Assembly (NCBI GenBank): GCA_913054335.1
Contig: CAJXHL010000002.1
Coordinates: forward strand, 1-58,607
Reading direction: 5' to 3'
Length of the DNA: 58,607 nucleotides
Source of the DNA: an uncultured Gammaproteobacteria bacterium
Lineage (GTDB): Bacteria; Pseudomonadota; Gammaproteobacteria; PS1; Pseudothioglobaceae
Position 1 is the first letter of the stretch; every line of letters starts with the position of its first letter. A model generated the notes under the pieces. That model was given only the letters and a program-made list of their open reading frames with translations. It did no database searches and was not told where the DNA came from. The position numbers were made by a program, and so were the translations under genes. Shown in pieces: positions 8,023-36,538 of the stretch.

Positions 8023-9024
8023 ATGAGTACAACATTTTTAAACAGAGAGGATATTGAGCAAATCGCGATTAAGGCGCTGATGAGTTCTGGTGCGAGTGAG
8101 GCTGCTGCAAGCGCCCTTGCAAAAGGTGTTGCGGCAGCTGAGATGGATGGTATTGCCAGCCACGGCTTGGTTTATGTGCCAATTTATTGTGAGCATTTGA
8201 CTTGTGGCAAGGTCAACCCAAATGCACAAGTTGTGGTGAATCAAACCGCTCCTAGCGCTATTGTGGTTGATGCAGATAGCGGTTTTGCTCATCCGGCGAT
8301 TGACGCCGGTTTTGATTTACTGATTAAAAGTGCTAAGAAAAACGGTTGTGCTGCGATGTCGGTCAGAAATTCTTATAATTGTGGTGTGCTGGGCTTTCAC
8401 TCGGAGCGTATTGCCCAAGCAGGCATGACGGGTCTTGGTTTTACCAATGCGCCTGCCTCCATTATGCCAGTGGGTGGCGACACTTCAGTGATTGGCACAA
8501 ATCCTTTTTCTGTGGCTGTGCCGGATGGCAAGGGTGGCGTTGCTTTTGTGATTGATCAATCTGCTAGTGTGGTTGCTAAAAGTGAAATTAAAATGCATGC
8601 ACAGGCAGGCAAGCCTATTCCTGAGGGCTGGGCATATGATGCAAATGGCAATCCAACAACAGATGCTGATGCTGCTATGAAGGGCTCTATGGCACCAGTA
8701 GGTGGTTACAAAGGCTTTGGTGCGGGCTTGATGGTTGAAGTCTTTGCTGCTGTTATGGCTGGCGCAACCTTGGGCAAAGATGCCAGTCCGTTTGCTGGGA
8801 CTGCAGGTGGCCCTCCAAGAACAGGCCAATTCTTTTTTGCCGCCTCACCAGATGTGTTTTCGCCAGATGTTTTTGGTGATCGAGTACAATCATTGACTGA
8901 GTCAATTGAGGTGCAGGTAGGTGCTCATTTACCGGGTAGTGGGCGTTTTGCTAAGCGTGCGAAACACGAACAGAGTGGTGTTGAAGTAAGTATTGCTTTG
9001 TTGGAGAAAATCCAAGCGATTTAA
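8023..9024 (+). CDS. LDH2/malate dehydrogenase-family oxidoreductase (imino-acid reductase-like)
   Basis: A 333-residue member of the LDH2 family, which includes sulfolactate, ureidoglycolate and delta1-piperideine/pyrroline-2-carboxylate reductases. The catalytic-histidine block SHGLVYVP is at about residues 46-53, and the nucleotide-binding and C-terminal blocks (GGDTSVIGTNPFSVAVP, GGYKGFG) are intact. AAGGAG lies 6 bp before the ATG. The motif YNCGVLGFHSE resembles that of the imino-acid (DpkA-type) reductases. With the enolase-superfamily dehydratase nearby, reduction of delta1-pyrroline-2-carboxylate to L-proline is the best hypothesis. Confidence 0.75.
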   Translation: MSTTFLNREDIEQIAIKALMSSGASEAAASALAKGVAAAEMDGIASHGLVYVPIYCEHLTCGKVNPNAQVVVNQTAPSAIVVDADSGFAHPAIDAGFDLLIKSAKKNGCAAMSVRNSYNCGVLGFHSERIAQAGMTGLGFTNAPASIMPVGGDTSVIGTNPFSVAVPDGKGGVAFVIDQSASVVAKSEIKMHAQAGKPIPEGWAYDANGNPTTDADAAMKGSMAPVGGYKGFGAGLMVEVFAAVMAGATLGKDASPFAGTAGGPPRTGQFFFAASPDVFSPDVFGDRVQSLTESIEVQVGAHLPGSGRFAKRAKHEQSGVEVSIALLEKIQAI

Positions 9025-9085
9025 TATTTAAAAAACCGACGAATATCCTGCTAATTTTGTTGCTCTCTTAGTCTGATTGGCCAAA

Positions 9086-10339
9086 TTATTCTGTAAAATC
9101 ATCGCGGTGTTTACCGATTTTGATTCTACGAGTCGTACCTTCAAGCTCTTGTTGATAGTCCGCCTCATTCATGCGTTCTTTAAGGACATCGGTTCTCAGA
9201 TCAAGTGTTGAAAGGCCCACTTGTCCAGCCGCCCTCATCCCGGCATATCTCGCCTCTGCAGTTATTTTCTTTCTTACTAGGTGCGGTTGCCAATAGTCCA
9301 AATCGCTAGGTTTCGCATTGCCTTCTAGGCTAAGGTAGTTGGTTTTTATAGCTGCATTAATTATTTCAGCGCCACGAGAGGTGCGACCAATCACAACATT
9401 TGTGCCCAGATCGTTTTCCATCATTTCTAAGGTCGGCTCACAGTTTGGCCACGTGTCTCCAGAAACAATGTCTGCAGCTTCACCAGAGCCATCCGGACAA
9501 ATACGACAGCGCCATGGTATGTGCCACTGTGAGGAGTCTGTGCCCCAGAAGTCCAGATAGGTTTTGCTGATTGTTTCACCGTTTTTGAAGCGAATAGTGG
9601 TTGGTCCAGGACAGCCTTCGCCTCGATAACTAACACTTTCAACATCACTCTCATCGGCGCCAACAGATTTGAGAAATTTTTCCATCGCAAAAGGTGGGAA
9701 AAAGCCGCCACAAATAGGTGTTAATAATGCCTTAATTTGTTGGTCAATTCTTGGATCTTTTTTGCCGAGCAAACGAACTGCCGATATGTCACACGGCTTG
9801 GCGACAAGGGCAATAGTAATGCCAGTATCGAGTATTTTGAGCAAGTTTTCCAGTGGCGAAGTAGAGGCATAGATTGAACTGCAGCCGTTGACGATATCTT
9901 CACTGGTTTGGCTTAATTGCGAATGACCAAAATACGCCTTTAGACCGCCACCAGCAACCTGCAAAATACAATCAACTTGCCCGCTCTCCAGCAAATACAG
10001 GCTGATTGCGGTTAGTCCGCCGCCGGTAGCCGCCTTGTGTCGTATTTTTGCATCACTTGAGTGCGCCCTCACTATTGTTTCTATCGGCCCCCACATTGGA
10101 TCCAGATTTTCTAGGTTTGAGATCTTGTCACTTGGCAAGCCCGAATGCACAACGCCAGGGCAAAAGCTTTGTAGGTGGATATTTTGCTCGGAACTTAATG
10201 GCGTGTTTTCTGAGGGGCGCAGATGTCCGGAGGGCGAAACCTGCATTTGGACTTGACTAGGGAAAACGCCAGCACAGAGCCCACAACCTATACACAGGCC
10301 CTCTTCGATAATTTGTTCTATATTGCTATTTGAGTTCAT
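9086..10339 (-). CDS. FrhB/FdhB-family iron-sulfur flavoprotein (coenzyme F420 hydrogenase beta-subunit-like)
   Basis: A 417-residue protein of the FrhB family. The N-terminus has CIGCGLC (Cys16, Cys19, Cys22), but the fourth position of a classic CxxCxxCxxxCP cluster is Phe26-Pro27, so that cluster lacks a ligand or uses another one. Further Cys-containing blocks are PWRCRICPDGSGE and YRGEGCPGPT. Relatives transfer electrons through FAD and Fe-S clusters, and bacterial homologues lacking F420 are common beside catabolic genes. It lies 11 bp downstream of the enolase-superfamily gene in a minus-strand operon. The redox partner and substrate are unknown. Confidence 0.7.
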   Translation of the reverse strand: MNSNSNIEQIIEEGLCIGCGLCAGVFPSQVQMQVSPSGHLRPSENTPLSSEQNIHLQSFCPGVVHSGLPSDKISNLENLDPMWGPIETIVRAHSSDAKIRHKAATGGGLTAISLYLLESGQVDCILQVAGGGLKAYFGHSQLSQTSEDIVNGCSSIYASTSPLENLLKILDTGITIALVAKPCDISAVRLLGKKDPRIDQQIKALLTPICGGFFPPFAMEKFLKSVGADESDVESVSYRGEGCPGPTTIRFKNGETISKTYLDFWGTDSSQWHIPWRCRICPDGSGEAADIVSGDTWPNCEPTLEMMENDLGTNVVIGRTSRGAEIINAAIKTNYLSLEGNAKPSDLDYWQPHLVRKKITAEARYAGMRAAGQVGLSTLDLRTDVLKERMNEADYQQELEGTTRRIKIGKHRDDFTE

Positions 10340-10350
10340 TTGCAGTCCAG

Positions 10351-11433
10351 CTAAATTAGAAATTGTTTAATCGCCTTGTCATCAAAGGTAAAACCAAGTC
10401 CCGGGCGTTCTGGAATATCAATACAGCCAGCAATAATAGGTATTTTCTCGTTGAACAGAGGCGCGTACCAAGGCATGTGTTCAATTGAAATACAATTCTC
10501 AACTGAGCCGGCTATGCATAGACTTTGTTCGGTGAAAATATGGGTAGAGATTGGTAAGTTGTAAGCTTCGGCTAAATGCGCCACTTTGCGCATCTCGCTA
10601 AGGCCACCGATTCGCTGCAAATCTGGCATAAGGATGTCACAAGCCTTGGCTTCAATCATCGCGCGCATGCCGTAACGAGTGTATTCGGTTTCGCCGGATG
10701 CAATAGGAATATCTAACGCTTGGCGCACTTCGCTATGGCCGACCAAGTCGTATGCCGGTACTGGTTCTTCTAGCCACAGAAGATCAAATTCTTGCAATTC
10801 TTTACCCAGTTTTATTGCTTGTTTTGGCGTTGATGACTGGTTAAGGTCTGCCATCAATTCAACGTCTTGCCCAATCGCACTTCGAAGTTGTCTGATGCGT
10901 TCCACGTCATCTTTGTAGTCTTTAGAGCCAAGTCTAATTTTCATAGAGGTATGACCTTGTTGAAGAAAAACATGGGCCTCTTCGATGAGCTCGTCTATGC
11001 TTTGTGCAAGCCATAAGCCCCCACTGGCATAGGTTTTTATCTTACTTCGACAGGCGCCAAACAATTTGTGTAGTGGTAAATTAGCCGCCTTGCCGACAAT
11101 ATCCCACAGTGCTGTATCAATAGTAGAAAGCGCCGAAATGGTAACGCCTTTGTGGCCAGTAGGATTTATTGCTCTCCAGATATCCTGCCAAATGGCCTCG
11201 ATAAAATGCGGGTCTTTGCCGATTAGATGTGGCGCAAAACCCTTGATCATTTCATCAAAGGCTTTAATGCGTACAGCATTTAACGCAAAAAGATAGGACT
11301 CGCCCGTAATCCCTTCATCGGTTTTAATAGTGAGCAACACACAGCCCACTGAGCCCATATCGTGAATTGCTGTTTTAATTGGTTTTTCGAAAGGAAGTTC
11401 GACAACCCTTGTTGTTAACCCGCTAATGATCAT
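10351..11433 (-). CDS. Enolase-superfamily dehydratase/racemase, mandelate racemase subgroup
   Basis: A 360-residue protein with the mandelate-racemase layout: acid/base motif KIR (Lys165-x-Arg167, a KxR variant of KxK), metal ligands Asp196 (ADLNQS), Glu222 (WLEEPV) and Glu248 (SGET), and the His298/Asp271 dyad (STHIF, MPDLQR). These positions nearly coincide with those of mandelate racemase. KxR members are usually acid-sugar dehydratases. Whether this one makes a 2-keto-3-deoxy acid or racemises a hydroxy acid cannot be told. It is paired with the FrhB-like gene downstream. Upstream, 122 bp separate it from the lysR gene. Confidence 0.75.
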   Translation of the reverse strand: MIISGLTTRVVELPFEKPIKTAIHDMGSVGCVLLTIKTDEGITGESYLFALNAVRIKAFDEMIKGFAPHLIGKDPHFIEAIWQDIWRAINPTGHKGVTISALSTIDTALWDIVGKAANLPLHKLFGACRSKIKTYASGGLWLAQSIDELIEEAHVFLQQGHTSMKIRLGSKDYKDDVERIRQLRSAIGQDVELMADLNQSSTPKQAIKLGKELQEFDLLWLEEPVPAYDLVGHSEVRQALDIPIASGETEYTRYGMRAMIEAKACDILMPDLQRIGGLSEMRKVAHLAEAYNLPISTHIFTEQSLCIAGSVENCISIEHMPWYAPLFNEKIPIIAGCIDIPERPGLGFTFDDKAIKQFLI

Positions 11434-11555: not shown

Positions 11556-12401
11556 TTAGTGAACGATTCTTCTTAATGCACGAATGGCTGCTTTGTGCAA
11601 TTTTGAATCGATAGCGCTTGTTGGGTAGCCCAAGTAAGTTGGTCGGTGAAAAGTTGGAGAGTTTTCCACCACAAACAATGTTTCGTCTTCGAGCAAGTGC
11701 TTGATGGAGCCCTCGATAAAATAACCTGAGCCACCGTTCTTCAGAATATGATTGAGGGCACTAGTTGCTACGCCAAAAGATATCTTAGGGATGTAGGCCT
11801 TAGGAAATGCGAGGTTGTGTTGGGAGCGGAACTCATGACCCCAGTCCACAAATACATAACCATCTACTCTACCCATTTCAAGAATGCGTGGCTCTGTAGC
11901 CACAAGAATCAGTGGGTCGTCCATCAGCTGCTCTATATGGATATTGGGTTGGTGTATTGGGCGGTAAAGAATGGCCATATCAATATGACCATCGCGCAGT
12001 TGAGCCATCAATGGATCTGAATAATCACTGATTACTCTTGTTGCAATACTGGGCTCGGTTTTCCGCATGATGTCTAGCCATTTGGGAGCGATATAATCCC
12101 AGTGATTCATCTGAATGCCAAAACTAAAGACACCGGTCATATCGTCTGGCAAGGCAATTTCCTGACGCGCCCTTTCCCATGCCTGAACGGCGGCAACGGC
12201 GTGCTTATGAAAAAGTCTGCCAGCGGTTGTCAATTCACAACCGTTACGTTTTCTGATAATAAGTGGTTGGCGGAGTTGTTCTTCTAGCGCCTTGATTCTA
12301 GCGCTGACAGTGGATTGAGTAACGTGTAATTTTTCGGCGGACGCTTGAAAGCTGCCAGAAGAGCTGACCTCTAAAAAAGTGCGCATATGCTCAATATTCA
12401 T
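11556..12401 (-). CDS. LysR-family transcriptional regulator
   Basis: A 281-residue LysR-type regulator. The N-terminal winged helix-turn-helix (MNIEHMRTFLEVSSSGSF, then the ARIKALEEQL block near residues 31-40) is complete and is followed by a substrate-binding domain. It is divergent from the class II aldolase gene at 12560, the usual arrangement for an autoregulated LysR that controls its neighbour. A palindrome with a T-N11-A core at 12468-12484 in the gap is the likely operator, and a nearly identical site occurs before the HyuAB operon. The effector is unknown. Confidence 0.85.
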   Translation of the reverse strand: MNIEHMRTFLEVSSSGSFQASAEKLHVTQSTVSARIKALEEQLRQPLIIRKRNGCELTTAGRLFHKHAVAAVQAWERARQEIALPDDMTGVFSFGIQMNHWDYIAPKWLDIMRKTEPSIATRVISDYSDPLMAQLRDGHIDMAILYRPIHQPNIHIEQLMDDPLILVATEPRILEMGRVDGYVFVDWGHEFRSQHNLAFPKAYIPKISFGVATSALNHILKNGGSGYFIEGSIKHLLEDETLFVVENSPTFHRPTYLGYPTSAIDSKLHKAAIRALRRIVH

Positions 12402-12559: not shown

Positions 12560-13297
12560 ATGAATGTAGAACAATTAACCCTCGAGCAAGAGATGGAAAA
12601 AGTTAGGATTGATTTGGCGGCTATGTTTCGTTTAACGGTAATGCATGGCTGGGACGATACTGTTTGGAATCACATCACCGCTAGAGTACCTGGTTCCGAT
12701 CACCATTTTTACATGCATCGATTTGGTCTTACCTATGAAGAAGTATGCGCCTCAAATTTAATCAAAGTGGATGAAGAAGGAAATGTGCTAGAGGGTCCGA
12801 GTGATGTGAGTACAGCGGGTTTTATCATACATAGCGCGATTCACCTCAACTACCCAAACAATAAATTTGTGTTTCATGCGCATCCTGCGAGTGCAATTGC
12901 AGCGACAGCCTTTAAGGAGATTCCATTCTTAGTGCAAGACTCCGCGATGCTTTACGGAAAAGTTGGTTATCACGATTGGGAGGGCTTATCGGTAGACCCG
13001 GATGAGCGCTTGCGAATTGCTGATAATTTGGGCGATAACTCTTGCTTGGTGATGCGTAATCATGGCTTTTTGACGGTTGGTGAAACGTCAGGGCAGTGTT
13101 TTATGAATATGTATTACCTGATTCGCCTATGTGAAGTTGCGCTCAGTGCCAAAACATCCAACTTAGAGATAGATTCAGGCCCCGAGCATCTTTGGCCAAT
13201 CGCCTCAAAACAATACGAGGCGTTCTCACCAGGTGTCTATGAATGGCCAGCTTTGCTGCGTCGTTGTGACCGGTTAGATCCTTCATATAAACATTAA
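12560..13297 (+). CDS. Class II aldolase/adducin-family protein
   Basis: A 245-residue protein of the class II aldolase/adducin fold. Zinc-binding histidines are visible in FHAHPAS (about residues 113-119) and in MRNHGF (about 174-179). Family members are fuculose/rhamnulose phosphate aldolases, four-carbon sugar-acid decarboxylases or non-catalytic homologues. It is the first gene of a five-gene plus-strand cluster and is divergent from lysR. With the beta-hydroxyacid dehydrogenase two genes on, a sugar-acid-like route is conceivable, but the oxygenase between them is unusual for that. The substrate is not known. Confidence 0.75.
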   Translation: MNVEQLTLEQEMEKVRIDLAAMFRLTVMHGWDDTVWNHITARVPGSDHHFYMHRFGLTYEEVCASNLIKVDEEGNVLEGPSDVSTAGFIIHSAIHLNYPNNKFVFHAHPASAIAATAFKEIPFLVQDSAMLYGKVGYHDWEGLSVDPDERLRIADNLGDNSCLVMRNHGFLTVGETSGQCFMNMYYLIRLCEVALSAKTSNLEIDSGPEHLWPIASKQYEAFSPGVYEWPALLRRCDRLDPSYKH

Positions 13298-13299
13298 TA

Positions 13300-14184
13300 A
13301 TGTCAGTTATTTCAGCACCTTCAGCCTTTAGTGCTAATGAAATTCAACTGGAGGATTTTCTAGATTTAGAGAGATTTCCTATTCACGATTTAACCAGTAA
13401 AAAAAGGGCCGCTTTGGTTGCTGATTGTCGCAAAGATTTAGAAAAATGGGGTTGCGCTCATGTGCCAGATTTTATTACCCCCTCAGCTACTCAAAAAATG
13501 AAGGAAGAGGCGTTTCGCATTATGGTCGGCGCTCGCAGAGCGCATGCATGGGTGAATCCTTATCTCACCAAAGAAGACACCAGTTTGCCGGAAGACCACC
13601 CTAAGCGTTTTTTTGAAGAAAGAACCTCATCCTTTATTAATTCCGATTTGCTGGAGGCAGATTCAATATTGCGTATGATTTATGACAGTGATGTGATGGT
13701 GCACTTTGTCTCAGATTGCCTGAATGTTGGCCCGATATATCGTTGGGCAGAACCATTGGGGCGTAATCCGTATAGTGTGATGAAAGGCGGCGATTATTTC
13801 CCTTGGCATTTTGATGGCAATGATTTTACTGTTAGTATTTTGGTCAATGAGTCCGAAGAAGGCGGCGATTTTGAGTACGTGCCCGATATTCGCTCTGCCA
13901 ATAATGAGTGTTTTGATGATGTTGGTGCGGTCTTGCAGGGTGCTCGAGAAAAGGTGCGGGTGCTGAGTTTAAAAACGGGCGACCTGCAAATATTTAAAGG
14001 TCGTTATTCGATGCACAGAGTTACAACCACACAAGGTGAGTCGCCACGAATTATTGCCCTACCAACTTATGTCACTAATCCGTATTTGGTCAATAGACCA
14101 CACCATGCTGAAGCGTTTTACGGTCGCTCAATGGCGATTCACCACGAGCGTAATTTAGAGCGTGTTGATAACTTAACCGATTAA
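13300..14184 (+). CDS. BesD/HalD-like Fe(II)/2-oxoglutarate oxygenase
   Basis: A 294-residue protein beginning just after the aldolase stop. The iron triad is seen as His170-Phe-Asp172 (FPWHFDGNDF) and His239 (SMHRVTT), with Arg250 (ESPRIIALPTY) placed to bind 2-oxoglutarate. The blocks WHFD.N.F, GGDFEYVPDIRS and LQIFKGRYSMHRVT match my recollection of the family that contains the amino-acid radical halogenases BesD and HalD. Halogenases have Gly in place of the triad Asp; this one keeps Asp172, so hydroxylation is predicted. The likely substrate is a free amino acid or a similar small polar metabolite, by family analogy. Cytoplasmic; no signal peptide. Confidence 0.6.
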   Translation: MSVISAPSAFSANEIQLEDFLDLERFPIHDLTSKKRAALVADCRKDLEKWGCAHVPDFITPSATQKMKEEAFRIMVGARRAHAWVNPYLTKEDTSLPEDHPKRFFEERTSSFINSDLLEADSILRMIYDSDVMVHFVSDCLNVGPIYRWAEPLGRNPYSVMKGGDYFPWHFDGNDFTVSILVNESEEGGDFEYVPDIRSANNECFDDVGAVLQGAREKVRVLSLKTGDLQIFKGRYSMHRVTTTQGESPRIIALPTYVTNPYLVNRPHHAEAFYGRSMAIHHERNLERVDNLTD

Positions 14185-14196
14185 GGAAAAAATAAC

Positions 14197-15090
14197 ATGA
14201 ATATTGGATTTATCGGTCTTGGTAATATGGGTACTGGCATGGCGCTCAATCTACTCAGGCATTGCCAAGAGTCTGGCGACACACTCATTGTTTTTGATAT
14301 TAATGAAACAGCGTTGACTGATGTGGTTGCCAAAGGCGCGGTTAATGGACAGAGTACTGCTAGGTTATGTGGCCAGTGTGAGGTATTGTTTACTTCGCTA
14401 CCAAGCGCCAAAGAAGTCAATCTTCTAGCTTTTGGAGGTGATGGTATTCTTGCTAATCTTAAAGAGGGAGCGACTTGGTTTGAAACCAGTACCAATGAAT
14501 TATCAGAATGGCAAAAAGTGAAAAACGAAGCGCCGAGTCACTTGACCTTGGTCGATGCGCCAGTCAGCGGTGGCGCCGAAGGTGCATTAGCAGGAACATT
14601 AGCGATATTTTTAGGTATTGATGAAAATGTTCTTACAAAGTTTGAATCTTTACTAGGCGTTTTTGCGGCCAGAGTGGTGCGTATGGGGCCTTCCGGCGCA
14701 GGCTATGTCACCAAATTAGCGCAACTGCATTTAAATTATCTTGTCGCCCAAGGCATTGGTGAAACTTTAATGCTAGGTGCAAAAGCTAACTTAGACTTAA
14801 GTGTGCTACACTCTGTCTTGATGAGTAGCTGTGCTCGTAGTTACGTGGTTGAAAGTTATATCCCAAAAGTGCTCGACGGCAGTTACGATACATCTTTTGC
14901 TCTTGGCTTGGCGGAAAAAGACATGCGGTTGATTACCGAGTTGGGTCAACATCTTGAAGTGAGTATGCCTCTTGGGGATAAGGTCTACAACACATATCAG
15001 CAGGCAAAAAATGCGTATGGCTATGACGCACCTCATCTAAGTGTTGTTCGCTTAATGGAAGAGCAGCACGATCAATTATTACGGAGCTAG
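14197..15090 (+). CDS. 3-hydroxyisobutyrate dehydrogenase-family NAD(P)-dependent oxidoreductase
   Basis: A 297-residue beta-hydroxyacid dehydrogenase. The N-terminus has the Rossmann signature IGFIGLGNMG, the substrate-binding block DAPVSGGAEGA is at about 120-130, and the catalytic Lys is Lys173 in GAGYVTKLAQ. An AAGGA ribosome site precedes the ATG. Relatives act on 3-hydroxyisobutyrate, tartronate semialdehyde, L-threonate or 3-hydroxypropionate. It sits between the BesD-like oxygenase and a GhrA-like dehydrogenase, so it may oxidise a hydroxylated product of the oxygenase. A second, distant paralogue lies at 57316. Confidence 0.8.
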   Translation: MNIGFIGLGNMGTGMALNLLRHCQESGDTLIVFDINETALTDVVAKGAVNGQSTARLCGQCEVLFTSLPSAKEVNLLAFGGDGILANLKEGATWFETSTNELSEWQKVKNEAPSHLTLVDAPVSGGAEGALAGTLAIFLGIDENVLTKFESLLGVFAARVVRMGPSGAGYVTKLAQLHLNYLVAQGIGETLMLGAKANLDLSVLHSVLMSSCARSYVVESYIPKVLDGSYDTSFALGLAEKDMRLITELGQHLEVSMPLGDKVYNTYQQAKNAYGYDAPHLSVVRLMEEQHDQLLRS

Positions 15091-15096
15091 TGATTT

Positions 15097-16029
15097 ATGG
15101 CATTACTTGTTAGTCTTATCGATACGGATATTCAGCCTTGGGTTGAGGTGTTTGAGTCTGAATTGAGTAATATGGACATCAGAATTTACCCTGATGTTGG
15201 CGATGTTAGTGAAATAGAATACGTTGCCGCTTGGCAACACCCATTTGGCGAATATAAAAAATATCCAAATTTAAAAGCCATTCTGTCACTCGGAGCAGGT
15301 GTGGATCATATTATTAAAGATCCAGCATTGCCCAAGGATGTACCTATAGTGCGTATGGCAGATGACTCCCTGATTCGCGATATGTGTTTGTATGCATCGC
15401 ACTGGGTGTTGCATTTTCATAGTGACTATTATCGCTATACCAAGCTACAAGCAAAGAAACTGTGGCTACCGCAAGATTTTGTAGCACCTAAAAATCGATC
15501 GATTGGCATTATGGGTTTTGGCAATATTGGTAAATCCATTGGCGATTTATTGACTACCCAAGGTTTTAAGGTTGTTGGCTGGGGTGCTAGTGAAAAGCAC
15601 ACAACCGGCGGGATTGAGTATTTCTATGGCAAAGATCAAATGAGTGCTTTTTTAAATAAGGCTGAGATTTTGATCAATGTATTGCCACTCACTGATGCCA
15701 CGAGAAGCTTAGTAATGGAGCGTGAATTGCGTCAACTACCCAAAGGTGCTTTTGTGATTAATATGGGCAGAGGCTCTATTATTAATGAGAGCGATCTTTT
15801 GAGTGTTCTCAACAGTTCTCATATCAGTGCAGCAGTGCTTGATGTATTTGACGTGGAGCCCTTGCCTGTTGATGACCCACTTTGGTCACACCCTAACGTC
15901 ACTATTACGCCCCATATTGCTGGCCAAAGTGATGGCAATACAGCGGCGATGTTTATGGTTGAGAATATTCGCAGAATAGAAAATGGTGAGCCGCCTTTTC
16001 CGCTTTATGACGTAACACGAGGCTATTAA
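15097..16029 (+). CDS. D-2-hydroxyacid dehydrogenase, glyoxylate/hydroxypyruvate reductase A-like
   Basis: A 310-residue GhrA-type dehydrogenase. Visible blocks are LSLGAGVDHI (substrate pocket), the Rossmann motif GIMGFGNIGKSIG, NMGRGSIIN, and the catalytic Glu and His in DVFDVEPL and TPHIAG. It reduces glyoxylate, hydroxypyruvate or a related 2-ketoacid, or runs in reverse. It follows the beta-hydroxyacid dehydrogenase after 6 bp and precedes the DddP-like gene by 14 bp, so it belongs to the same transcription unit. Confidence 0.8.
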   Translation: MALLVSLIDTDIQPWVEVFESELSNMDIRIYPDVGDVSEIEYVAAWQHPFGEYKKYPNLKAILSLGAGVDHIIKDPALPKDVPIVRMADDSLIRDMCLYASHWVLHFHSDYYRYTKLQAKKLWLPQDFVAPKNRSIGIMGFGNIGKSIGDLLTTQGFKVVGWGASEKHTTGGIEYFYGKDQMSAFLNKAEILINVLPLTDATRSLVMERELRQLPKGAFVINMGRGSIINESDLLSVLNSSHISAAVLDVFDVEPLPVDDPLWSHPNVTITPHIAGQSDGNTAAMFMVENIRRIENGEPPFPLYDVTRGY

Positions 16030-16043
16030 TTAGCCGTAGTGGG

Positions 16044-17255
16044 ATGAATAGTATGACAACAATATTACCAGAACCACAACTTTCTAAAAATACACTTTGG
16101 GAAATGTTTGATTATCGTTTGGCGAGATTGCGTCAAGTGATGGCAGAGAAAAACGTCAATCTATGCATTTTAGCCAACCCAATTAGTTTGCGATATGCAA
16201 TTGATTTTGATGAGTATCAAGTCTTTCAGGCGCACATCCCCACTTGTTATTTGTTTGTGCCTATCGAGGGCCCACTTGTTATGCACGGTGCTACCAGTAA
16301 CGACTTTCATAATGTTGATGAGTATTGTCGGCCGCGTTTTGTCAGTCCTTTTGATGGTGGTTTGGATTTGGGTGAAAAAACGCGACTTTTTGCAAACGAT
16401 GTAAAAATATTTATTAAAAAGCATCAATTACAGCAAGCTGGCGATAGCATAGCTTTAGAGAGGTTTACGCCTCTTGCAACACAAGCTTTAGAGGCCCTAA
16501 AATTTGACGTGATCGATGCCGATTGCCTTGTAGAGCAAGCCAAGGTCATTAAATCCGACACTGAGATTGAGTGCATCAAGCATTCAATTGCTGTTACTGA
16601 GTACGGCATAAAATTAATGCAAGAAAATACTAGAGCAGGCATGACAGAGCGCCAACTATGGTCAATTTTGCATCAGGTCAATGTTGCCAATAACGGTTGC
16701 TGGATGGAGGGACACATGCTCTCATCAGGGCCAAGAACTAATCCTTGGTTACAAGAGGCCACAGGACGAGTGATTGAAAGCGGCGATATGATTGCTTTTG
16801 ATACTGACCTTATTGGCCCCAGAGGTTATATGGCAGATATCTCTAGGTCTTGGATTTGTGGTGGCGGTACTGGCACGCAAGCCCAAAGAGATGCTTACCA
16901 ACATGCTTTCGATGAGGTGCATTTCAATATTGATATTATCAAGCCAGGAATGCAGTTTTCTGAATTGGTTGAGAGGGCGTTTAAACGCAAAAAAATCTAC
17001 CAGCATAATCACTATGTTTGCGTCTATCACGGCGCGGGTCTTTCCGATGAATATCCCAAGATTTATTATCACGATGATTGGGCTAGAGATGGCTATGACG
17101 GCGTTGTAGAGCCAAATACAGTCTTATGTGTTGAGAGCTACTCCGGCGCATTAGGCGGTGATGTCGGTGTTAAACTCGAGCAAATGGTGTTGGTCAATGA
17201 GGCTGGCGTCGAGGTTTTAAGTCATTACCCATTCGAAGATAGTTTAATTCAATAA
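16044..17255 (+). CDS. dddP: DddP-like M24-family protein (candidate DMSP lyase)
   Basis: A 403-residue M24-fold protein. Several blocks are close to the DMSP lyase DddP: LSSGPRTNPW, FDTDLIG, YHGAGLSDE, LCVES and the tail SHYPFED. All six metal ligands of DddP can be placed: Asp253, Asp255, Asp265, His329, Glu364 and Glu379. DddP cleaves dimethylsulfoniopropionate to DMS and acrylate. The N-terminal part is shorter than in the Roseobacter enzyme (about 446 residues), and the clade assignment needs a tree; a related M24 hydrolase is the alternative. A second ATG at 16053 has better spacing to the upstream GTGGG. A 13-bp inverted repeat overlaps the stop. Confidence 0.6.
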   Translation: MNSMTTILPEPQLSKNTLWEMFDYRLARLRQVMAEKNVNLCILANPISLRYAIDFDEYQVFQAHIPTCYLFVPIEGPLVMHGATSNDFHNVDEYCRPRFVSPFDGGLDLGEKTRLFANDVKIFIKKHQLQQAGDSIALERFTPLATQALEALKFDVIDADCLVEQAKVIKSDTEIECIKHSIAVTEYGIKLMQENTRAGMTERQLWSILHQVNVANNGCWMEGHMLSSGPRTNPWLQEATGRVIESGDMIAFDTDLIGPRGYMADISRSWICGGGTGTQAQRDAYQHAFDEVHFNIDIIKPGMQFSELVERAFKRKKIYQHNHYVCVYHGAGLSDEYPKIYYHDDWARDGYDGVVEPNTVLCVESYSGALGGDVGVKLEQMVLVNEAGVEVLSHYPFEDSLIQ

Positions 17256-17270
17256 TAATTGAATTAAACT
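17241..17270. repeat. Perfect 13-bp inverted repeat over the stop of the DddP-like gene
   Basis: AGTTTAATTCAAT, loop AATA, then ATTGAATTAAACT. The arms are perfectly complementary and wholly A/T-rich, and the stop codon lies at the arm/loop boundary. It is not followed by a T run on the plus strand, so it is not a textbook terminator. It may protect the 3' end of the mRNA or separate this unit from the gcv operon. Confidence 0.6.
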
Positions 17271-17423
17271 AAAAATATCCTTTAGCATATTCAATTGAGT
17301 CTATAATATTATTGATTGAATATAACTAAACATGTTTTGGTTTTATTTTATCAGCTAATGTTAAGTAAATAGCTGTAAATACAAGGCATTGTGAGGTTAG
17401 TAACTAATAATATGGGTCTAGCG

Positions 17424-24438: not shown

Positions 24439-27400
24439 ATGAGCGAAACACTCACTGAAAAGAATAAGAAATGGCAATTTTGGATTGATCGAGGGGGTAC
24501 TTTTACCGATGTCATTGCAAAAACCCCACAAGGGGCGTTGCGCACGCATAAATTATTGTCTGAAAATCCTACCCAATACACAGATGCAGCTATTCAAGGT
24601 ATCCGTGACTTGCTTGGCTTGGAGGCAGGTGAGACAATTCCAATGGATGCAATTGATTCAATCAAAATGGGTACAACAGTGGCTACCAACGCCCTATTGG
24701 AGCGCCAAGGCGAGAGGACTTTATTAGCAATTACGCAAGGCTTGGGTGATATTTTGCGCATTGGTTATCAGCAACGCCCCAAATTATTTGCCCTTGATAT
24801 TCAGCTTCCAGATATTTTGTATAGTAACGTTATCGAGATTGAAGAGCGCATGAGCGCCCAAGGTGAGTGCATTAAGCCACTTGATATCGCAAAAACCAAA
24901 AAACAACTGCAAGAAGCGTTTGATCAAGGATACCGCGCTATCGCCATTGTACTATTACATGGCTATCGCTATCACGAAAACGAAAGCACAATCAAAAATA
25001 TAGCACAGGGAATGGGCTTTGAGCAAATTTCCCTCAGTCATGAAGTTAGCCCGCTAATGAAAATTGTGCCTCGAGGTGATACCACGGTTGTCGATGCTTA
25101 CTTGTCTCCTATTTTGCGTCGCTATGTCAATCAGGTGGAAACTGCGCTGGGCGCCCAGAGTGAAAAAACAAACAAACTGATGTTTATGCAATCTAGCGGT
25201 GGCTTGACCGATGCTCGGTTTTTCCAAGGCAAGGATGCAATCCTCTCAGGTCCAGCCGGTGGCGTAGTTGGCATGGTTAAAACATCTGAACAAGCTGGAT
25301 TTAAGAAACTCATCGGCTTTGATATGGGAGGCACCTCTACAGACGTGTCACATTACGCTGGGGAATATGAACGCACGCTTGAGACGCAGGTTGCCGGTGT
25401 GCGTGTGCGTGCACCAATGATGTTAATTCACACGGTTGCAGCAGGCGGAGGCTCTATTATTCACTTTGATGGCGCGCGCTATCGAGTGGGCCCCGATTCA
25501 GCAGGTGCCAACCCTGGCCCTGCTTGTTATCGAAATGGCGGGCCGCTAACGATTACCGATTGCAATGTCATGCTAGGCAAGCTAAACCCTGAGTTTTTCC
25601 CCAAGGTGTTTGGGGGAAATGCCGATCAAAGCCTAGATGTGCAAATCGTTAAAGAAAAATTCACCCATTTGGCCGAACAAATTACAACTGCAACCGGTAA
25701 AGCTATAAATCCTTTTGAAGTGGCTGAGGGGTTTTTATTGATTGCGGTTGAATCCATGGCCAATGCGATTAAAAAGATTTCGGTTGAGCGAGGCTATGAT
25801 GTTAGTGAATATACGCTTTCTTGTTTTGGTGGTGCTGGCGCGCAACACGCGTGCTTAGTGGCCGATGCTTTGGGCATGAAACGCATTCATCTTCACCCTT
25901 TTGCTGGTGTATTGTCGGCCTATGGCATGGGACTTGCGGATATCCGTACAATTAACGACTTGGCAATCGAATCTGAGCTTAACGAAGCACTTATTCAATC
26001 ATTCGAGCGGAGATTCGACCAGCTAAAGACAAAAGGGCGTGGAGAGTTACTTGCCCAAGGCTTAGATGTAAACAGCATTAGTTATCGGTCTCGGGTGTTT
26101 GTTCGCTATCAAGGATCAGACAGTGCATTGGCGATTAATTTTGCCCCTCTTGCACAACTGAAAGCCGATTTTGAAAAGCGCCATAAAGCGCGCTTTAGTT
26201 TTATTTCGCCTGAAAAAGCATTAATCATTGAGTCTATCCAAGTAGAAGTTATTTGCGAAAATCAGCAAAGCCAATCTGCAGAGGTTCGAGTGAGCCCGAA
26301 AAACACAGAAACAACAGCACTACTTGAGGTGGTGATGAGTGGTAAGTCACAGCAAGTTGCTTTTTATCAACGCGATGCAATCGCCACCAATGATCTGATT
26401 AATGGTCCTGCAGTAATCATTGAGCCCACATCCACGATCGTCCTTGAGCCCGGCTGGCAGGGCCGCATAAGTGATAACAACGATCTTATCCTTGAGCGCT
26501 TTGAGGTGCTCAAAAGAGACTATGCCATTGGCACCGAGGTTGATCCAATTATGCTGGAGGTTTTTAATAATATATTTATGAGTGTTGCGGAGCAAATGGG
26601 TACGGTACTTGAAAATACCGCATCATCAGTCAATATTAAAGAGCGCTTGGATTTTTCCTGCGCATTGTTTTCACCTGCGGGAGAACTTGTTGCTAATGCG
26701 CCCCATGTGCCGGTGCATTTGGGATCAATGAGTGAATCAATCAAAACAATCATTCGCGAGAACAGAGAGACAATGTCTTCTGGTGATGCATTCTTAATAA
26801 ATGCGCCATACAATGGTGGCACGCATCTGCCGGATATCACCTTAATAAAGCCTGTGTATGACGCACAAAACAAGAAGGTAATCTTTTATGTGGCAAGCCG
26901 AGGCCATCATGCTGATATTGGTGGTACCGTTCCTGGATCTTCGCCTGCAGATTCTAAACACATCAGCGAAGAAGGTGTGTTAATTGATAACTTTACATTA
27001 GTTTCTGAAGGGGTGTTTCAAGAACAGGCAGTCTATGATTTATTTGCCTCAGGCGATTATCCGGCGCGTAATATTGCGCAAAATATTGCCGATTTGAAAG
27101 CCCAAGTTGCCGCCGCAGAAAAAGGCGCACATGAATTGTTAAAAGTTGTCGACCATTACTCGCTTGAAGTGGTGCATGCCTACATGCAGCACGTGCAAGA
27201 TAACGCAGAAGAGTCAGTAAGGCGCGTTTTGGATGTGCTTAGCGATTCTCACTATACATACAAAATGGATGATGGTAATCAAATCTCTGTTACTATCAAA
27301 ATCGATAAAGATAATCGTGAAGCGAGTATTGATTTCACTGGTACCAGTGCCCAGCATCCGGGTAATTACAATGCGCCGAGTGCTATTTGTTACGCTGCTG

Positions 27401-28074
27401 TACTTTATGTTTTTCGTTGCATGGTTGATGATGATATTCCACTTAATGCTGGGTGTTTTAAGCCACTTAAACTCATTATTCCTAAAGGCAGTATGATTAA
27501 CCCAGCCTATCCAGCAGCAGTGGTTGCTGGTAACACCGAAACCTCACAGGTAATTGTTGATGCACTATTTGGAGCCTTAGGGGTGGTTGCTGCGTCTCAA
27601 GGTACAATGAATAACTACATTTGGGGTAATGACAAAGTGCAGAATTATGAAACGATTTGCGGAGGCTCGGGCGCCAGTGAAAAACAGGCTGGGTGCAGTG
27701 CGGTACACACCCACATGACGAACACCCGACTGACCGACACCGAGGTATTGGAGTGGCGTTTTCCCGTTCGTTTAGAATCGTTTTCTATACGCCAGCAATC
27801 TGGTGGCGCTGGGCGGAATAAGGGCGGCGAAGGTGTTGATAGGCGGATGCGATTTTTAGAACCAATGATGGTTAATATCATTGCAGGGCATCGCATTGTG
27901 CCTCCGTATGGCTTAAACGGTGGAAAAAGCGGCTCTGTTGGCGAAAATTATGTAATACACGCTGATGGCAGGCGTACAGATTTAGGCACTAAGGGACAGA
28001 TTGAAGTTGATAAAAATGATATATTTGTACTCAAAACCCCAGGTGGTGGAGGTTTTGGGGAAATAAAAAACTAA
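24439..28074 (+). CDS. Fused HyuA-HyuB hydantoinase / 5-oxoprolinase family protein
   Basis: A 1211-residue ATP-dependent amidohydrolase with both halves in one chain, as in 5-oxoprolinase. The HyuA half (about 1-690) has actin-fold phosphate loops DRGGTFTDV and GFDMGGTSTDVS. The HyuB half (about 700-1211) has blocks such as NAPHVPVHLGSMSESI, NAPYNGGTHLPD and SRGHHADIGG. Reactions in the family are ATP-dependent opening of 5-oxoproline, hydantoins or N-methylhydantoin. Since creatinase and sarcosine oxidase follow, N-methylhydantoin (a creatinine-breakdown intermediate) is an attractive substrate, but 5-oxoproline is equally possible from sequence alone. No clear ribosome site precedes the ATG. 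Confidence 0.85.
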   Translation: MSETLTEKNKKWQFWIDRGGTFTDVIAKTPQGALRTHKLLSENPTQYTDAAIQGIRDLLGLEAGETIPMDAIDSIKMGTTVATNALLERQGERTLLAITQGLGDILRIGYQQRPKLFALDIQLPDILYSNVIEIEERMSAQGECIKPLDIAKTKKQLQEAFDQGYRAIAIVLLHGYRYHENESTIKNIAQGMGFEQISLSHEVSPLMKIVPRGDTTVVDAYLSPILRRYVNQVETALGAQSEKTNKLMFMQSSGGLTDARFFQGKDAILSGPAGGVVGMVKTSEQAGFKKLIGFDMGGTSTDVSHYAGEYERTLETQVAGVRVRAPMMLIHTVAAGGGSIIHFDGARYRVGPDSAGANPGPACYRNGGPLTITDCNVMLGKLNPEFFPKVFGGNADQSLDVQIVKEKFTHLAEQITTATGKAINPFEVAEGFLLIAVESMANAIKKISVERGYDVSEYTLSCFGGAGAQHACLVADALGMKRIHLHPFAGVLSAYGMGLADIRTINDLAIESELNEALIQSFERRFDQLKTKGRGELLAQGLDVNSISYRSRVFVRYQGSDSALAINFAPLAQLKADFEKRHKARFSFISPEKALIIESIQVEVICENQQSQSAEVRVSPKNTETTALLEVVMSGKSQQVAFYQRDAIATNDLINGPAVIIEPTSTIVLEPGWQGRISDNNDLILERFEVLKRDYAIGTEVDPIMLEVFNNIFMSVAEQMGTVLENTASSVNIKERLDFSCALFSPAGELVANAPHVPVHLGSMSESIKTIIRENRETMSSGDAFLINAPYNGGTHLPDITLIKPVYDAQNKKVIFYVASRGHHADIGGTVPGSSPADSKHISEEGVLIDNFTLVSEGVFQEQAVYDLFASGDYPARNIAQNIADLKAQVAAAEKGAHELLKVVDHYSLEVVHAYMQHVQDNAEESVRRVLDVLSDSHYTYKMDDGNQISVTIKIDKDNREASIDFTGTSAQHPGNYNAPSAICYAAVLYVFRCMVDDDIPLNAGCFKPLKLIIPKGSMINPAYPAAVVAGNTETSQVIVDALFGALGVVAASQGTMNNYIWGNDKVQNYETICGGSGASEKQAGCSAVHTHMTNTRLTDTEVLEWRFPVRLESFSIRQQSGGAGRNKGGEGVDRRMRFLEPMMVNIIAGHRIVPPYGLNGGKSGSVGENYVIHADGRRTDLGTKGQIEVDKNDIFVLKTPGGGGFGEIKN

Positions 28075-28087
28075 AGAGGAAATACGG

Positions 28088-29239
28088 GTGAGCGTTCATT
28101 TTACAAAAAAAGAATTTAACAGTCGCCAATCAAAAGCAATTGCTGCACTCAATGAACGTAGTCTCGATGGTTTATTAATGTTTCGCCAAGAGAGTATGTA
28201 CTACCTCAGTGGCTATGACAGTTTCGGTTATGCCATGTTTCAATGTCTTTATCTGGGTTCAGATGGGCGGATGGTGCTACTTACTCGTGCGCCCGACCTC
28301 GCCCAAGCAGAGCTTACCTCTATACTTGATGACATTCGCATTTGGAAAGACGTAGCCGGAATGAACCCTGCACAGAACCTAAAACAACTATTAAAAGAAC
28401 TTGGTTGTGAAAACAAAAATCTAGGTATTGAGTACGATAGCGTTGGTTTGACAGCCCACAATTACCGCTTATTAGACAGCGCTTTGGCTGGTTTTTGTAA
28501 GCTCAGTGATGCCTCTGATCTGGTCAACAAGTTACGCTATATTAAAAGTGAGAAAGAGCTTGAATACACCCGCACAGCTGCAGCCCTTGCCGACGATGCC
28601 TATGATGCTGGCATTCAATTAACAAAAGCAGGTGCGTTTGAGGGAGATATACTGGCCGCTATGCAAGGCGCGGTTTTTAAAGGCGGTGGCACTTATGCTG
28701 GCAATGAGTTTATTATCGGTTCGGGCGAACATGCATTGCTGTGCCGTTATCACGCCGGTCCACGTCATCTCGATAAAGTCGATCAAATGACATTGGAGTG
28801 GGCGGGTTGTTATCGCCGCTACCACGCCGCGATGATGCGCACTGTACTTGTCGGCGAGGCTAGGCCAGAACACCACCAAATGCACGCAGTGGCTACCGAT
28901 GCACTACTCGCCTGTGAAGAGAAATTAAAACCCGGCAACACTCTGGGTGATGTTTTTGCTGCCCACGCCAATGTGATGGATTCTAGCGGATTAAAAGAGC
29001 ATCGTTTAAATGCTTGTGGTTATACTATGGGTTGTGCCTACGCACCGATTTGGGTTGATTATCCAATGATTTATAAAAATAACCCAATGGTGATTGAAGA
29101 AAATATGGTGTTCTTTCTGCACATGATTTTGATGAACAGAGATAATCGTCTGGCAATGTGCCCCGGGCATTCTGTTGTTATAGGCTCAGGAGGCGCTGAA
29201 CGACTTAGCCGCACATCACTTAATTTGGAGATTAAATAA
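28088..29239 (+). CDS. M24-family hydrolase, ectoine hydrolase (DoeA)-like
   Basis: A 383-residue creatinase/aminopeptidase-P-fold protein starting with GTG after AGAGGAAA. The motif EWAGCYRRYHAAMMRT (about residues 237-252) resembles the EIAGCYRRYH block I associate with DoeA/EutD-type ectoine hydrolases. Glu237 and His246 stand where metalloproteases have two Asp ligands, so a metal-independent or altered site is likely, as in creatinase. Ectoine-type or N-acyl substrates are possible. It follows the HyuAB gene after 13 bp and precedes a MarR regulator after 3 bp. Confidence 0.7.
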   Translation: MSVHFTKKEFNSRQSKAIAALNERSLDGLLMFRQESMYYLSGYDSFGYAMFQCLYLGSDGRMVLLTRAPDLAQAELTSILDDIRIWKDVAGMNPAQNLKQLLKELGCENKNLGIEYDSVGLTAHNYRLLDSALAGFCKLSDASDLVNKLRYIKSEKELEYTRTAAALADDAYDAGIQLTKAGAFEGDILAAMQGAVFKGGGTYAGNEFIIGSGEHALLCRYHAGPRHLDKVDQMTLEWAGCYRRYHAAMMRTVLVGEARPEHHQMHAVATDALLACEEKLKPGNTLGDVFAAHANVMDSSGLKEHRLNACGYTMGCAYAPIWVDYPMIYKNNPMVIEENMVFFLHMILMNRDNRLAMCPGHSVVIGSGGAERLSRTSLNLEIK

Positions 29240-29242
29240 GTC

Positions 29243-29758
29243 ATGGCCTTACAAGATAACGCTATTGTTTCATCAGCGCACCTTGCACAAGGTTCAGGTG
29301 CTGTACTCTCAGAAGTGGAATACGGGATCATCGTTGCTAATAATGCCATGCAACGTTGGATTGTTCGTTGTATGGTAGCTTCTGGGGGACCAGAAGAGCT
29401 TACCTATACAGATGTCCTTGTGTTGCATAATGTTTACCATCGAAGCCGAGCCAAGCGCCTAGCAGATATTTGTTTCACCCTTAATATTGAAGATACTCAC
29501 ACCGTTGCTTACGCTCTAAGAAAACTCAATAAATTAAACCTAGTTAAAACAGAAAAACGCGGTAAAGAAAGTTTTTACCAAGTAGGCAAAGAGGGAAAAA
29601 AAATCTGTGAAAAATACGCTGACATTCGACAACAGTGTTTATTGAATGCGCTGGGAGATTTGGGCGTTGATGACCAACCACTACACGAGCTGGCACGATT
29701 ATTGCGAACGCTTTCCGGTCTTTACGATCAAGCTGGGAGGGCAGCAACTTCATTGTAA
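29243..29758 (+). CDS. MarR-family (winged-helix) transcriptional regulator
   Basis: A 171-residue DNA-binding protein. The winged helix spans roughly residues 50-115, with RLADICFTLNIEDTHTVAYALRKLNKLNLV as recognition region and KRGKESFYQVGKEGKK as wing. It is embedded in the HyuAB operon, so it probably controls it in response to a substrate. The ATG lies 3 bp after the M24 stop. The operator is not identified. Confidence 0.8.
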   Translation: MALQDNAIVSSAHLAQGSGAVLSEVEYGIIVANNAMQRWIVRCMVASGGPEELTYTDVLVLHNVYHRSRAKRLADICFTLNIEDTHTVAYALRKLNKLNLVKTEKRGKESFYQVGKEGKKICEKYADIRQQCLLNALGDLGVDDQPLHELARLLRTLSGLYDQAGRAATSL

Positions 29759-29779
29759 TGACAATCAATTACTAACACT

Positions 29780-30643
29780 GTGAAATATCATCCACAAAAC
29801 TCTGAGCCACTTGACGTAGCTGAACGTTTAGGTAAACAACAAGTAGTCTGTTATCCTGTTGATAGTCTTCCTTCAGCGGATATGGAGTGTTATCAAAAGG
29901 CAAGAGAAAATCTAACTCTAGTTGATGAAACTATCATTCCGCCAAGGCAGGCAAAAACTTTTTCTGTTCCAGCCGGTCATTTTTTCCGCATTGTTAGTAT
30001 TGAAGGTCCACAAGTGGGTGATTTAAACCTGTGGCATAAAAACAATCTGAATGAGCGCTTTTATAGTGGCAAAACTCGTGCACTGCACGGCACCCATGTC
30101 AGCACTAGTGATCGCCTTTGGAGTAGTTTTCCCTATCTTCGACCAATGGCCACCGTAACCTTTGATACCTTGGACTGGTATGGTTGGGATGAGGATGGTG
30201 GTAGTGTCCACGATGTTATTGGCACACGCTGCGATCCGTATATTCATATGGTTCTAAACAACTATAATTATCATTTTTGCTGTCATTCGAATTTATGTAG
30301 AGCACTCGCTTCGTATGAAAAAAAATCCATTGATAAAATTGAACATTTAATCCATGATGTCTTGAATGTTTTTATGTGTACTGGCTTTACTAAGGATACT
30401 CACCAATATTTTATGAAAGCAAGCCCTGTTCGCCCAAGCGACTTTATAGAGTTCTTTGCCGAGATTGACTTATTAGGCGCCCTCTCCGCTTGCCCAGGAG
30501 GAGATTGCAGCAGCAGCCACTCGAGTGATGCAGCTGTATGCTATCCTCTTAAAGTTGAAATTTACAAGCCACATCAAGAAGCACTAATCGACTGGTCGTC
30601 GCCAGAAGTCAATAGCTATTCAGGTGAGCACGGTATCAAATGA
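29780..30643 (+). CDS. DUF1989 (urea carboxylase-associated / CgdAB-like) family protein
   Basis: A 287-residue DUF1989 protein. Conserved blocks are TSDRLWSSFPYLRPM, GTRCDPY, CCHSNLCRAL and ALSACPGGDCSSSHSSD; the Cys and His residues in these are probable metal or catalytic positions. Some DUF1989 proteins are subunits of carboxyguanidine deiminase, so activity on guanidino compounds is known for the family. The neighbouring creatinase acts on the guanidino compound creatine, which makes a related substrate plausible. The GTG start at 29780 has no clear ribosome site; no better in-frame start exists nearby. The stop overlaps the next ATG (ATGA). Confidence 0.8.
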   Translation: MKYHPQNSEPLDVAERLGKQQVVCYPVDSLPSADMECYQKARENLTLVDETIIPPRQAKTFSVPAGHFFRIVSIEGPQVGDLNLWHKNNLNERFYSGKTRALHGTHVSTSDRLWSSFPYLRPMATVTFDTLDWYGWDEDGGSVHDVIGTRCDPYIHMVLNNYNYHFCCHSNLCRALASYEKKSIDKIEHLIHDVLNVFMCTGFTKDTHQYFMKASPVRPSDFIEFFAEIDLLGALSACPGGDCSSSHSSDAAVCYPLKVEIYKPHQEALIDWSSPEVNSYSGEHGIK

Positions 30644-32319: not shown

Positions 32320-32335
32320 TGAAATAATTTGAATT

Positions 32336-32358
32336 AAAGATAATTAAATCTTTTTTTT
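32336..32358 (+). terminator. Weak rho-independent terminator candidate after the GMC gene
   Basis: AAAGAT, loop AATTAA, ATCTTT, followed by a run of T to 32358. The stem has only six pairs and is A/T-rich, but position and T tract fit termination between the HyuAB operon and creatinase. Confidence 0.4.
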
Positions 32359-32377
32359 ATTTTGTTAAAGAAAAAAC

Positions 32378-32406
32378 TTGCTATCTATCCAAAACTTGAT
32401 TAATAT
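32378..32406 (+). promoter_or_regulatory. Sigma-70-like promoter candidate for creatinase
   Basis: TTGCTA (32378-32383) and TAATAT (32401-32406) are separated by 17 bp and lie 30 bp before the creatinase ATG, directly after the putative terminator. GGGAAAGG is the ribosome site. Confidence 0.5.
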
Positions 32407-32435
32407 CCGCTTTTTTTGACCAACTGGGAAAGGTT

Positions 32436-33644: not shown

Positions 33645-33731
33645 CTGCATGGTTTATTTCGATTTTATCAATTGAATAATGTCATCGTACTACTGAAGCT
33701 TCACTGATAAAATTCGCAATTTTTACAGCTG

Positions 33732-33827
33732 CTTGAACTCAATTAATTGAGCTGCTGTTCAAGAGTTGGTTTGTAACGCTTATAAAGGCACCTCAAAAGA
33801 GGTACTGATGTTGTTAGGCTGCTACAA
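33732..33827 (+). promoter_or_regulatory. Candidate structured leader RNA before the sarcosine oxidase operon
   Basis: Inverted repeats cluster here: CTTGAAC (33732-33738) with GTTCAAG (33757-33763); the perfect palindrome CTCAATTAATTGAG (33739-33752); an outer pairing TTGTA..GC (33771-33779) with GCTACAA (33821-33827) enclosing the hairpin ACCTC-AAAA-GAGGT (33790-33803). The first two compete, as in a switch. I cannot match it to a known riboswitch class; it lacks the glycine riboswitch core. Confidence 0.35.
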
Positions 33828-33861
33828 TGATGTTTTGTTCGTGTTGTCTTGTAGAGTGAAT

Positions 33862-34971: not shown

Positions 34972-34992
34972 AATTTTAGATAGAGTTATATT

Positions 34993-36243: not shown

Positions 36244-36257
36244 TAAGGATAGATATT

Positions 36258-36533
36258 ATGTTTTTAATTCATTGTCCATATTGCAACGAAGAAAGAGAGC
36301 AGGAAGAGTTTTCACCTGCAGGTGAGGCGTTTATTGCTCGCCCTGTGGAGCCTGAAGGTATTAGTGATGAGGCTTGGGCGGATTACGTTTTTTATCGTAC
36401 AAACCATAAGGGCTATCATTGGGAGCAATGGGTACACAGCAACGGCTGTCGCAAGTACTTTATGGTTGAGCGCTCAACCATAACCCACGAAATTTTAAAA
36501 GTCGCTGCTTTTGGCGCGGATATTAGCGAGTAA
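36258..36533 (+). CDS. soxD: Sarcosine oxidase delta subunit
   Basis: A 91-residue zinc-binding subunit. The Cys6-x-x-Cys9 pair in IHCPYCNEERE and a C-terminal His/Cys set (HWEQWVHSNGCRKYF) form the zinc site typical of SoxD. It lies 14 bp after soxB and 5 bp before soxA. Confidence 0.95.
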   Translation: MFLIHCPYCNEEREQEEFSPAGEAFIARPVEPEGISDEAWADYVFYRTNHKGYHWEQWVHSNGCRKYFMVERSTITHEILKVAAFGADISE

Positions 36534-36538
36534 GTATT

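Follow-up and report, generated by a model that had tools for sequence, protein, structure and literature searches.

A DddP-like M24 protein placed outside the DMSP-lyase clade, in a hydroxylase-containing operon of a Thioglobus-like marine bacterium

INTRODUCTION

Of the DMSP-lyase genes counted in marine metagenomes, dddP is the most abundant (PMC10686828). Its product has an M24 fold; a Trp and a Tyr bind the DMSP sulfur and an Asp serves as base (PMC5395565), and the two His of M24 peptidases have become Asp and Phe (PMC5395565; PMC4108388), the loss of both being held to abolish peptidase activity (PMC5395565). Fungal DddP shows activity although only 32% identical to RdDddP (PMC4108388). 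In the metabolism of methylated amines, marine bacteria use MttB-type proteins to demethylate glycine betaine, and this system is present in SUP05-clade genomes (PMC12478193).

Here we describe a DddP-like M24 gene in a stretch of 58,607 nucleotides (positions 1 to 58,607 of contig CAJXHL010000002.1, hereafter the window). The source genome (1.7 Mb, 104 contigs; GCA_913054335.1) is that of a Candidatus Thioglobus-like marine gammaproteobacterium, a bacterium of the sulfur cycle. An initial annotation, made from the sequence, had proposed possible DMSP cleavage by the encoded protein, as DddP or as a near relative with another substrate.

FAMILY ASSIGNMENT

The gene is an intact open reading frame encoding 403 aa (Table 1). 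Relatives' proteins begin at M4, so the true start is probably at 16053 and the protein may be 400 aa long. The closest named relatives come from a Candidatus Thioglobus MAG (84% identical) and an uncultured gammaproteobacterium (83%).

The protein matches Peptidase_M24 (PF00557; 84.5 bits, cut-off 23). Its full-length PDB match is the DddP of Ruegeria lacuscaerulensis (RlDddP, 4rzy; E = 2e-65), and a second DddP structure, RdDddP (4b28), matches at E = 9e-62. The best peptidase structure reaches only E = 6e-14; in bits, peptidases score 55 or less against 224 for DddP. Profile matches to PepQ and DoeA are weak. There is no match to Creatinase_N (PF01321) in this protein, unlike the creatinase-type M24 proteins encoded at 28088 and 32436. 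An AlphaFold model built from three alignment rows had a pLDDT of 42, too low for use.

With NCBIfam NF043017, the curated DddP equivalog model, the score is 275 bits (E = 1e-81), less than half the cut-off of 600. Identity to RlDddP is 33% (126/382), and the alignment opens at residue 18, equivalent to RlDddP 52. A shortfall of about 40 residues relative to DddP had been remarked in the initial annotation and is real; what is missing is mainly the N-terminal loop-helix extension.

ACTIVE-SITE RESIDUES

All six metal ligands listed in that annotation are present (Table 1), aligning in order with RlDddP D295, D297, D307, H371, E406 and E421. Y324 and D335 correspond to DddP Tyr366 and Asp377, so that both are kept. 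The sulfur-binding Trp of DddP, which we take to be residue 95, is replaced by Phe61. Asp377 stands in DddP where M24 peptidases have a His, and the window protein has Asp there too. Position 278, which our own reading of the alignment suggests as the site of the second peptidase His, is Phe in DddP but Leu (L236) in the window protein.

Across 76 DddP-like proteins compared, the six ligands and Tyr366 were invariant (76/76 each). Asp377 was kept in 70, the other six having Gly and all belonging to one clade, and an aromatic residue occupied position 95 in 73. That residue was Trp in 19/19 rows of the DddP clade and Phe, within an FQxHIP motif, in 17/17 rows of the inner clade of the window protein. 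Because the ligands are invariant even in a clade without the catalytic base, they are not diagnostic for DddP. The catalytic set is thus wider than DMSP specificity and, judged by alignment, the ligands, Tyr366 and Asp377 mark the DddP-like subfamily rather than DMSP cleavage; an onium-type substrate stays plausible, given the aromatic residue so widely kept at position 95.

The Gly377 clade (L049, L052, L061, L062, L064 and L065) combines the six ligands with Tyr or Phe for Trp95; at two of its loci (L195 and L198) the gene immediately upstream is of HalD type.

PHYLOGENY AND PARALOGUES

In a maximum-likelihood tree the window protein fell in a 13-member clade (bootstrap 100, SH-aLRT 98), and RlDddP, the roseobacter-type DddPs and the Oceanisphaera DddP in a separate 30-member clade (100/100). 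The split persisted after alphaproteobacterial members were added. Uniting the seven-member group of the window protein with the DddP clade was rejected (log-likelihood 133 lower, AU p = 6e-5). The trees comprised no fungal DddP, and the creatinase-type M24 outgroup rows were too distant (branches over 6), leaving the family tree without a fixed root.

Phylogeny with ratified DddP had been set beforehand as the test, and it put the window protein outside their clade, so by that criterion the DddP reading fails and the suggestion of DMSP cleavage is left unsupported. The other half of the initial proposal, a relative with another substrate, is supported by the low equivalog score, the lost Trp and the separate clade. 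On this sequence evidence we assign the protein to the DddP-like M24 subfamily, outside the DMSP-lyase clade.

NF043017 scores in the genus and family form three classes: 639 bits (one genome), about 455-480 bits (most genomes of the genus) and about 270-294 bits (short proteins, including that of the window). The genome with the 639-bit DddP, G029 of the same genus, carries a window-type protein as well, which shows that these are separate genes. This Thioglobus-type DddP (L143, G029:C1:63000-80500, 8183-9523) adjoins an MttB-type gene and lies near a dimethylglycine-dehydrogenase-like gene, a setting unseen at nine other over-cut-off DddPs.

OPERON AND NEIGHBOURHOOD

The M24 gene ends a five-gene operon with intergenic gaps of 2, 12, 6 and 14 nt (Table 1). 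Its direct neighbours are the GhrA-like reductase gene, 14 nt upstream, and gcvT; glycine cleavage genes lie downstream of the operon, whose 3' end is marked by the inverted repeat. By its motif the HalD-type oxygenase has a hydroxylase-type rather than a halogenase-type ligand set. HalD-family enzymes are known for acting on free amino acids, and the genome has three genes of this type.

Table 1. Coordinates and properties of the M24 gene and surrounding features
Feature	Position	Strand	Evidence or details
FrhB/FdhB-type flavo-iron-sulfur reductase	9086..10339	-	
Mandelate racemase/enolase-superfamily enzyme	10351..11433	-	nearest solved: talarate/galactarate dehydratase
LysR-type regulator, divergent	11556..12401	-	158-nt shared intergenic region
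Class II aldolase/adducin-family, first gene of operon	12560..13297	+	NF005451 245 bits, cut-off 207
HalD-type Fe(II)/2-oxoglutarate oxygenase	13300..14184	+	PF23169 49 bits, cut-off 26; HxD...H (WHFD)
Beta-hydroxyacid dehydrogenase (HIBADH / tartronate-semialdehyde-reductase type)	14197..15090	+	
GhrA-like D-2-hydroxyacid dehydrogenase (glyoxylate/hydroxypyruvate reductase type)	15097..16029	+	GhrA 214 bits, cut-off 403
DddP-like M24 protein	16044..17255	+	D253, D255, D265, H329, E364, E379; Y324, D335; F61; L236
Perfect 14-bp AT-rich inverted repeat	17240..17271	.	spans M24 stop codon

The initial annotation placed the gene beside a hydroxylase rather than acrylate-use genes. This is right in substance: the operon includes the HalD-type gene, three genes before M24, and no acrylate-use gene adjoins the M24 gene. 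On other contigs of the source genome (C21 and C42 of G000; L153 and L150) are the DMSP demethylase DmdA (422 bits, cut-off 410) and the acryloyl-CoA reductase AcuI/YhdH (415 bits, cut-off 297); demethylation is thus a possible route of DMSP use in the lineage.

Three pathway assignments were considered and rejected. A role of the 10351 enzyme as HpbD, acting on hydroxyproline-betaine, was set aside on account of its nearest structure. Such an assignment would better suit the enolase-superfamily protein at 1239-2366, which by sequence is related to structures of the cis-3-hydroxyproline dehydratase and hydroxyproline-betaine epimerase type (2ps2, 2pce, 4mgg and 4e8g). An L-sulfolactate/sulfonate pathway was rejected because the Ldh2 protein at 8023 scores 185 bits to sulfolactate dehydrogenase (cut-off 500). 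Finally, for the hydroxylase and aldolase we considered cleavage of hydroxy-trimethyllysine (carnitine type), to which the gene types alone point.

CONSERVATION AND PAIRING WITH HALD-TYPE GENES

Related genomes within the genus (L038-L042) keep the operon together with the LysR gene and the racemase-type gene, and a FrhB-type reductase gene often directly adjoins the M24 gene there; one locus (L037) retains only the M24-FrhB pair. The regulator is kept at 52-97% in corresponding clusters elsewhere. A paralogue of the FrhB-type reductase encoded at 9086 lies directly beside M24 in four relatives, on a Pseudomonas plasmid and in one alphaproteobacterium. The plasmid, of Pseudomonas sp. MPC6 (L105), has homologues of the LysR, M24, FrhB, GhrA and racemase-type genes and two HalD-type genes, at 37-60% identity; the racemase-type enzyme is 60% identical to the 10351-11433 product. 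This cluster adjoins a glycine-betaine ABC transporter.

Outside the genus, five loci (L105, L136, L192, L195 and L198), spread over at least three branches of the family tree, have a HalD-type gene immediately beside a DddP-like M24 gene. All five neighbouring proteins exceed the PF23169 cut-off and have the HxD...H ligands. The chance of five such neighbours in 54 loci is about 1e-5, assuming a 0.5% background, for a post hoc comparison of loci that are partly related. None of the 10 DddP loci over the cut-off had a HalD-type neighbour, and a literature search found no paper mentioning DddP together with a halogenase-type enzyme.

METHYLATED-AMINE CONTEXT

The second DddP-like clade of the genus is accompanied by a dimethylglycine-dehydrogenase-like oxidase in 13/13 loci and by an MttB-type methyltransferase in 10/13. 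MttB also occurs near DddP-like members in Mesorhizobium, Parasedimentitalea and others. It was found near 0/9 of the over-cut-off DddP loci outside the genus, and is absent from the surroundings of the window M24 gene and of its closest relatives. For the window gene the betaine link is one of context, drawn from the wider window, from loci on plasmids and from other clades.

Elsewhere in the window, an island of methylated-amine type (24439-40136) includes an oxoprolinase/hydantoinase (24439), the two creatinase-type M24 proteins mentioned above, DUF1989, a GMC oxidoreductase (30640), an FAD/2Fe-2S reductase (33766) and sarcosine oxidase beta-, alpha- and gamma-type subunits (34993, 36539 and 39549).

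At the left end of the contig (1-114) an MTTB-coding stretch (8-94, E = 1.5e-6) runs into the exact C-terminus of the second paralogue in another frame (PFEKHLLR-stop, 88-114). Relatives have the order mttB, M24, zinc ADH; some 2.5 kb is thus absent from this contig, whether truly deleted or lost as an artefact of the contig end. The source genome held no other copy of this second paralogue.

DISCUSSION

The separate branch, the loss of Trp95 and the hydroxylase-centred operon make another small methylated molecule likelier than DMS production. We give about even chances to the window protein being a lyase or hydrolase with a di-metal M24 site that acts on another carboxylate, probably of onium or betaine type; a compound of the methylated-amine (betaine) type is the most likely substrate. 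The dimeric di-metal enzyme would bind a small zwitterionic substrate by its carboxylate at the metals, with the onium group held against Phe61 and Tyr324. Asp335 would then take the alpha proton, and an amine, rather than dimethyl sulfide, would leave by elimination; alternatively, the C-N bond would be cleaved by hydrolysis. The HalD-type enzyme may hydroxylate the substrate or product of the M24 enzyme. The aldolase, the mandelate-racemase-type enzyme and the two dehydrogenases could pass the carbon skeleton to glyoxylate, hydroxypyruvate or glycine, a flow that the neighbouring glycine cleavage genes might meet.

More tentatively, the DddP-like M24 subfamily may be mainly betaine- or onium-cleaving, often paired with HalD-type or with MttB/dimethylglycine-dehydrogenase modules, DddP being one specialised offshoot and the window operon an undescribed pathway, dependent on hydroxylation, by which marine bacteria of the Thioglobus type handle a methylated-amine osmolyte.

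That the protein is instead a lyase or hydrolase in a pathway for non-methylated hydroxy- or keto-acids (sugar-acid type), with no onium substrate, is doubtful. Its partners suit such a pathway, namely the racemase-type enzyme closest to talarate/galactarate dehydratase, the class II aldolase, the tartronate-semialdehyde-reductase-type enzyme and GhrA; yet HalD-family enzymes are known to act on free amino acids, Tyr366 and an aromatic position 95 persist across the family, and a betaine ABC transporter marks the end of the Pseudomonas cluster.

An ordinary M24 peptidase or amidohydrolase (prolidase, creatinase or ectoine-hydrolase type, annotated as Xaa-Pro peptidase) is unlikely. The fold, the weak PepQ and DoeA matches and the label 'Xaa-Pro peptidase family protein' on plasmid relatives fit that description, but DddP is by far the better structural match, both M24 His are replaced (by Asp and Leu), a loss held to abolish activity (PMC5395565), and the Creatinase_N domain found in the two creatinase-type M24 proteins of the window is absent.

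Least probable, and in our judgement very unlikely, is a true though divergent lyase of DMSP (or DMSOP) using DddP chemistry with Phe for Trp95: the ligands, Tyr366 and Asp377 are conserved, some ratified DddPs (fungal, 32%; PMC4108388) are equally far from RdDddP so that 33% identity to RlDddP is compatible with DMSP cleavage, the lineage meets DMSP to judge by its own DmdA and AcuI, and Phe could still form a cation-pi contact with the sulfonium, but against these stand the tree test, the equivalog score, the replaced Trp, an operon of hydroxylase, aldolase and 2-hydroxyacid enzymes with no acrylate-use gene next to M24, and a separate over-cut-off DddP in one genome of the genus.

For annotation, the residues usually used to recognise DddP are common to a far wider M24 subfamily. 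Thioglobus-type bacteria have up to three DddP-like paralogues. Of these a single one, present in one of the genomes searched, exceeds the DddP cut-off, and similarity searches with loose criteria can therefore make the capacity of these bacteria to produce DMS look larger than it is. The repeated pairing with HalD-type and quaternary-amine genes offers a concrete, assayable guess at the function of the rest of the family.

COMPARISON WITH KNOWN SYSTEMS

Creatinase, prolidase and ectoine hydrolase have in common with the window protein the pita-bread M24 catalytic domain; their matches are about 55 bits or less, and the window protein differs from them in having no Creatinase_N match and in having Asp and Leu for the His residues of creatinase/prolidase-type peptidases.

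Nearer are the F61-clade 'Xaa-Pro peptidase family' proteins on plasmids of Pseudomonas sp. MPC6 and Mesorhizobium, which belong to the same clade, with the FQxHIP motif, at 44-46% identity. The Mesorhizobium copies lie beside MttB, proXV and SDR genes, without HalD.

The second DddP-like clade of the genus (L139-L142, L144, L145 and L181-L187) has the same ligands, Tyr366 and Asp377, but its proteins are 438 aa long, keep Trp95, score about 455-480 bits (below the cut-off) and are distant from the window protein in the tree; its neighbours are the MttB-type methyltransferase, the dimethylglycine-dehydrogenase-like oxidase and a zinc ADH.

DddP itself (RlDddP, 4rzy/4s00/4s01; RdDddP, 4b28) resembles the window protein in its full-length M24 fold, six ligands, Tyr366 and Asp377. 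It differs in the N-terminal loop-helix extension (RdDddP residues 10-50, PMC4108388), in Trp95, N99, A103 and F278, where the window protein has F61, I65, Y69 and L236, and in its separate clade, whereas the window protein belongs to a hydroxylase/aldolase operon.
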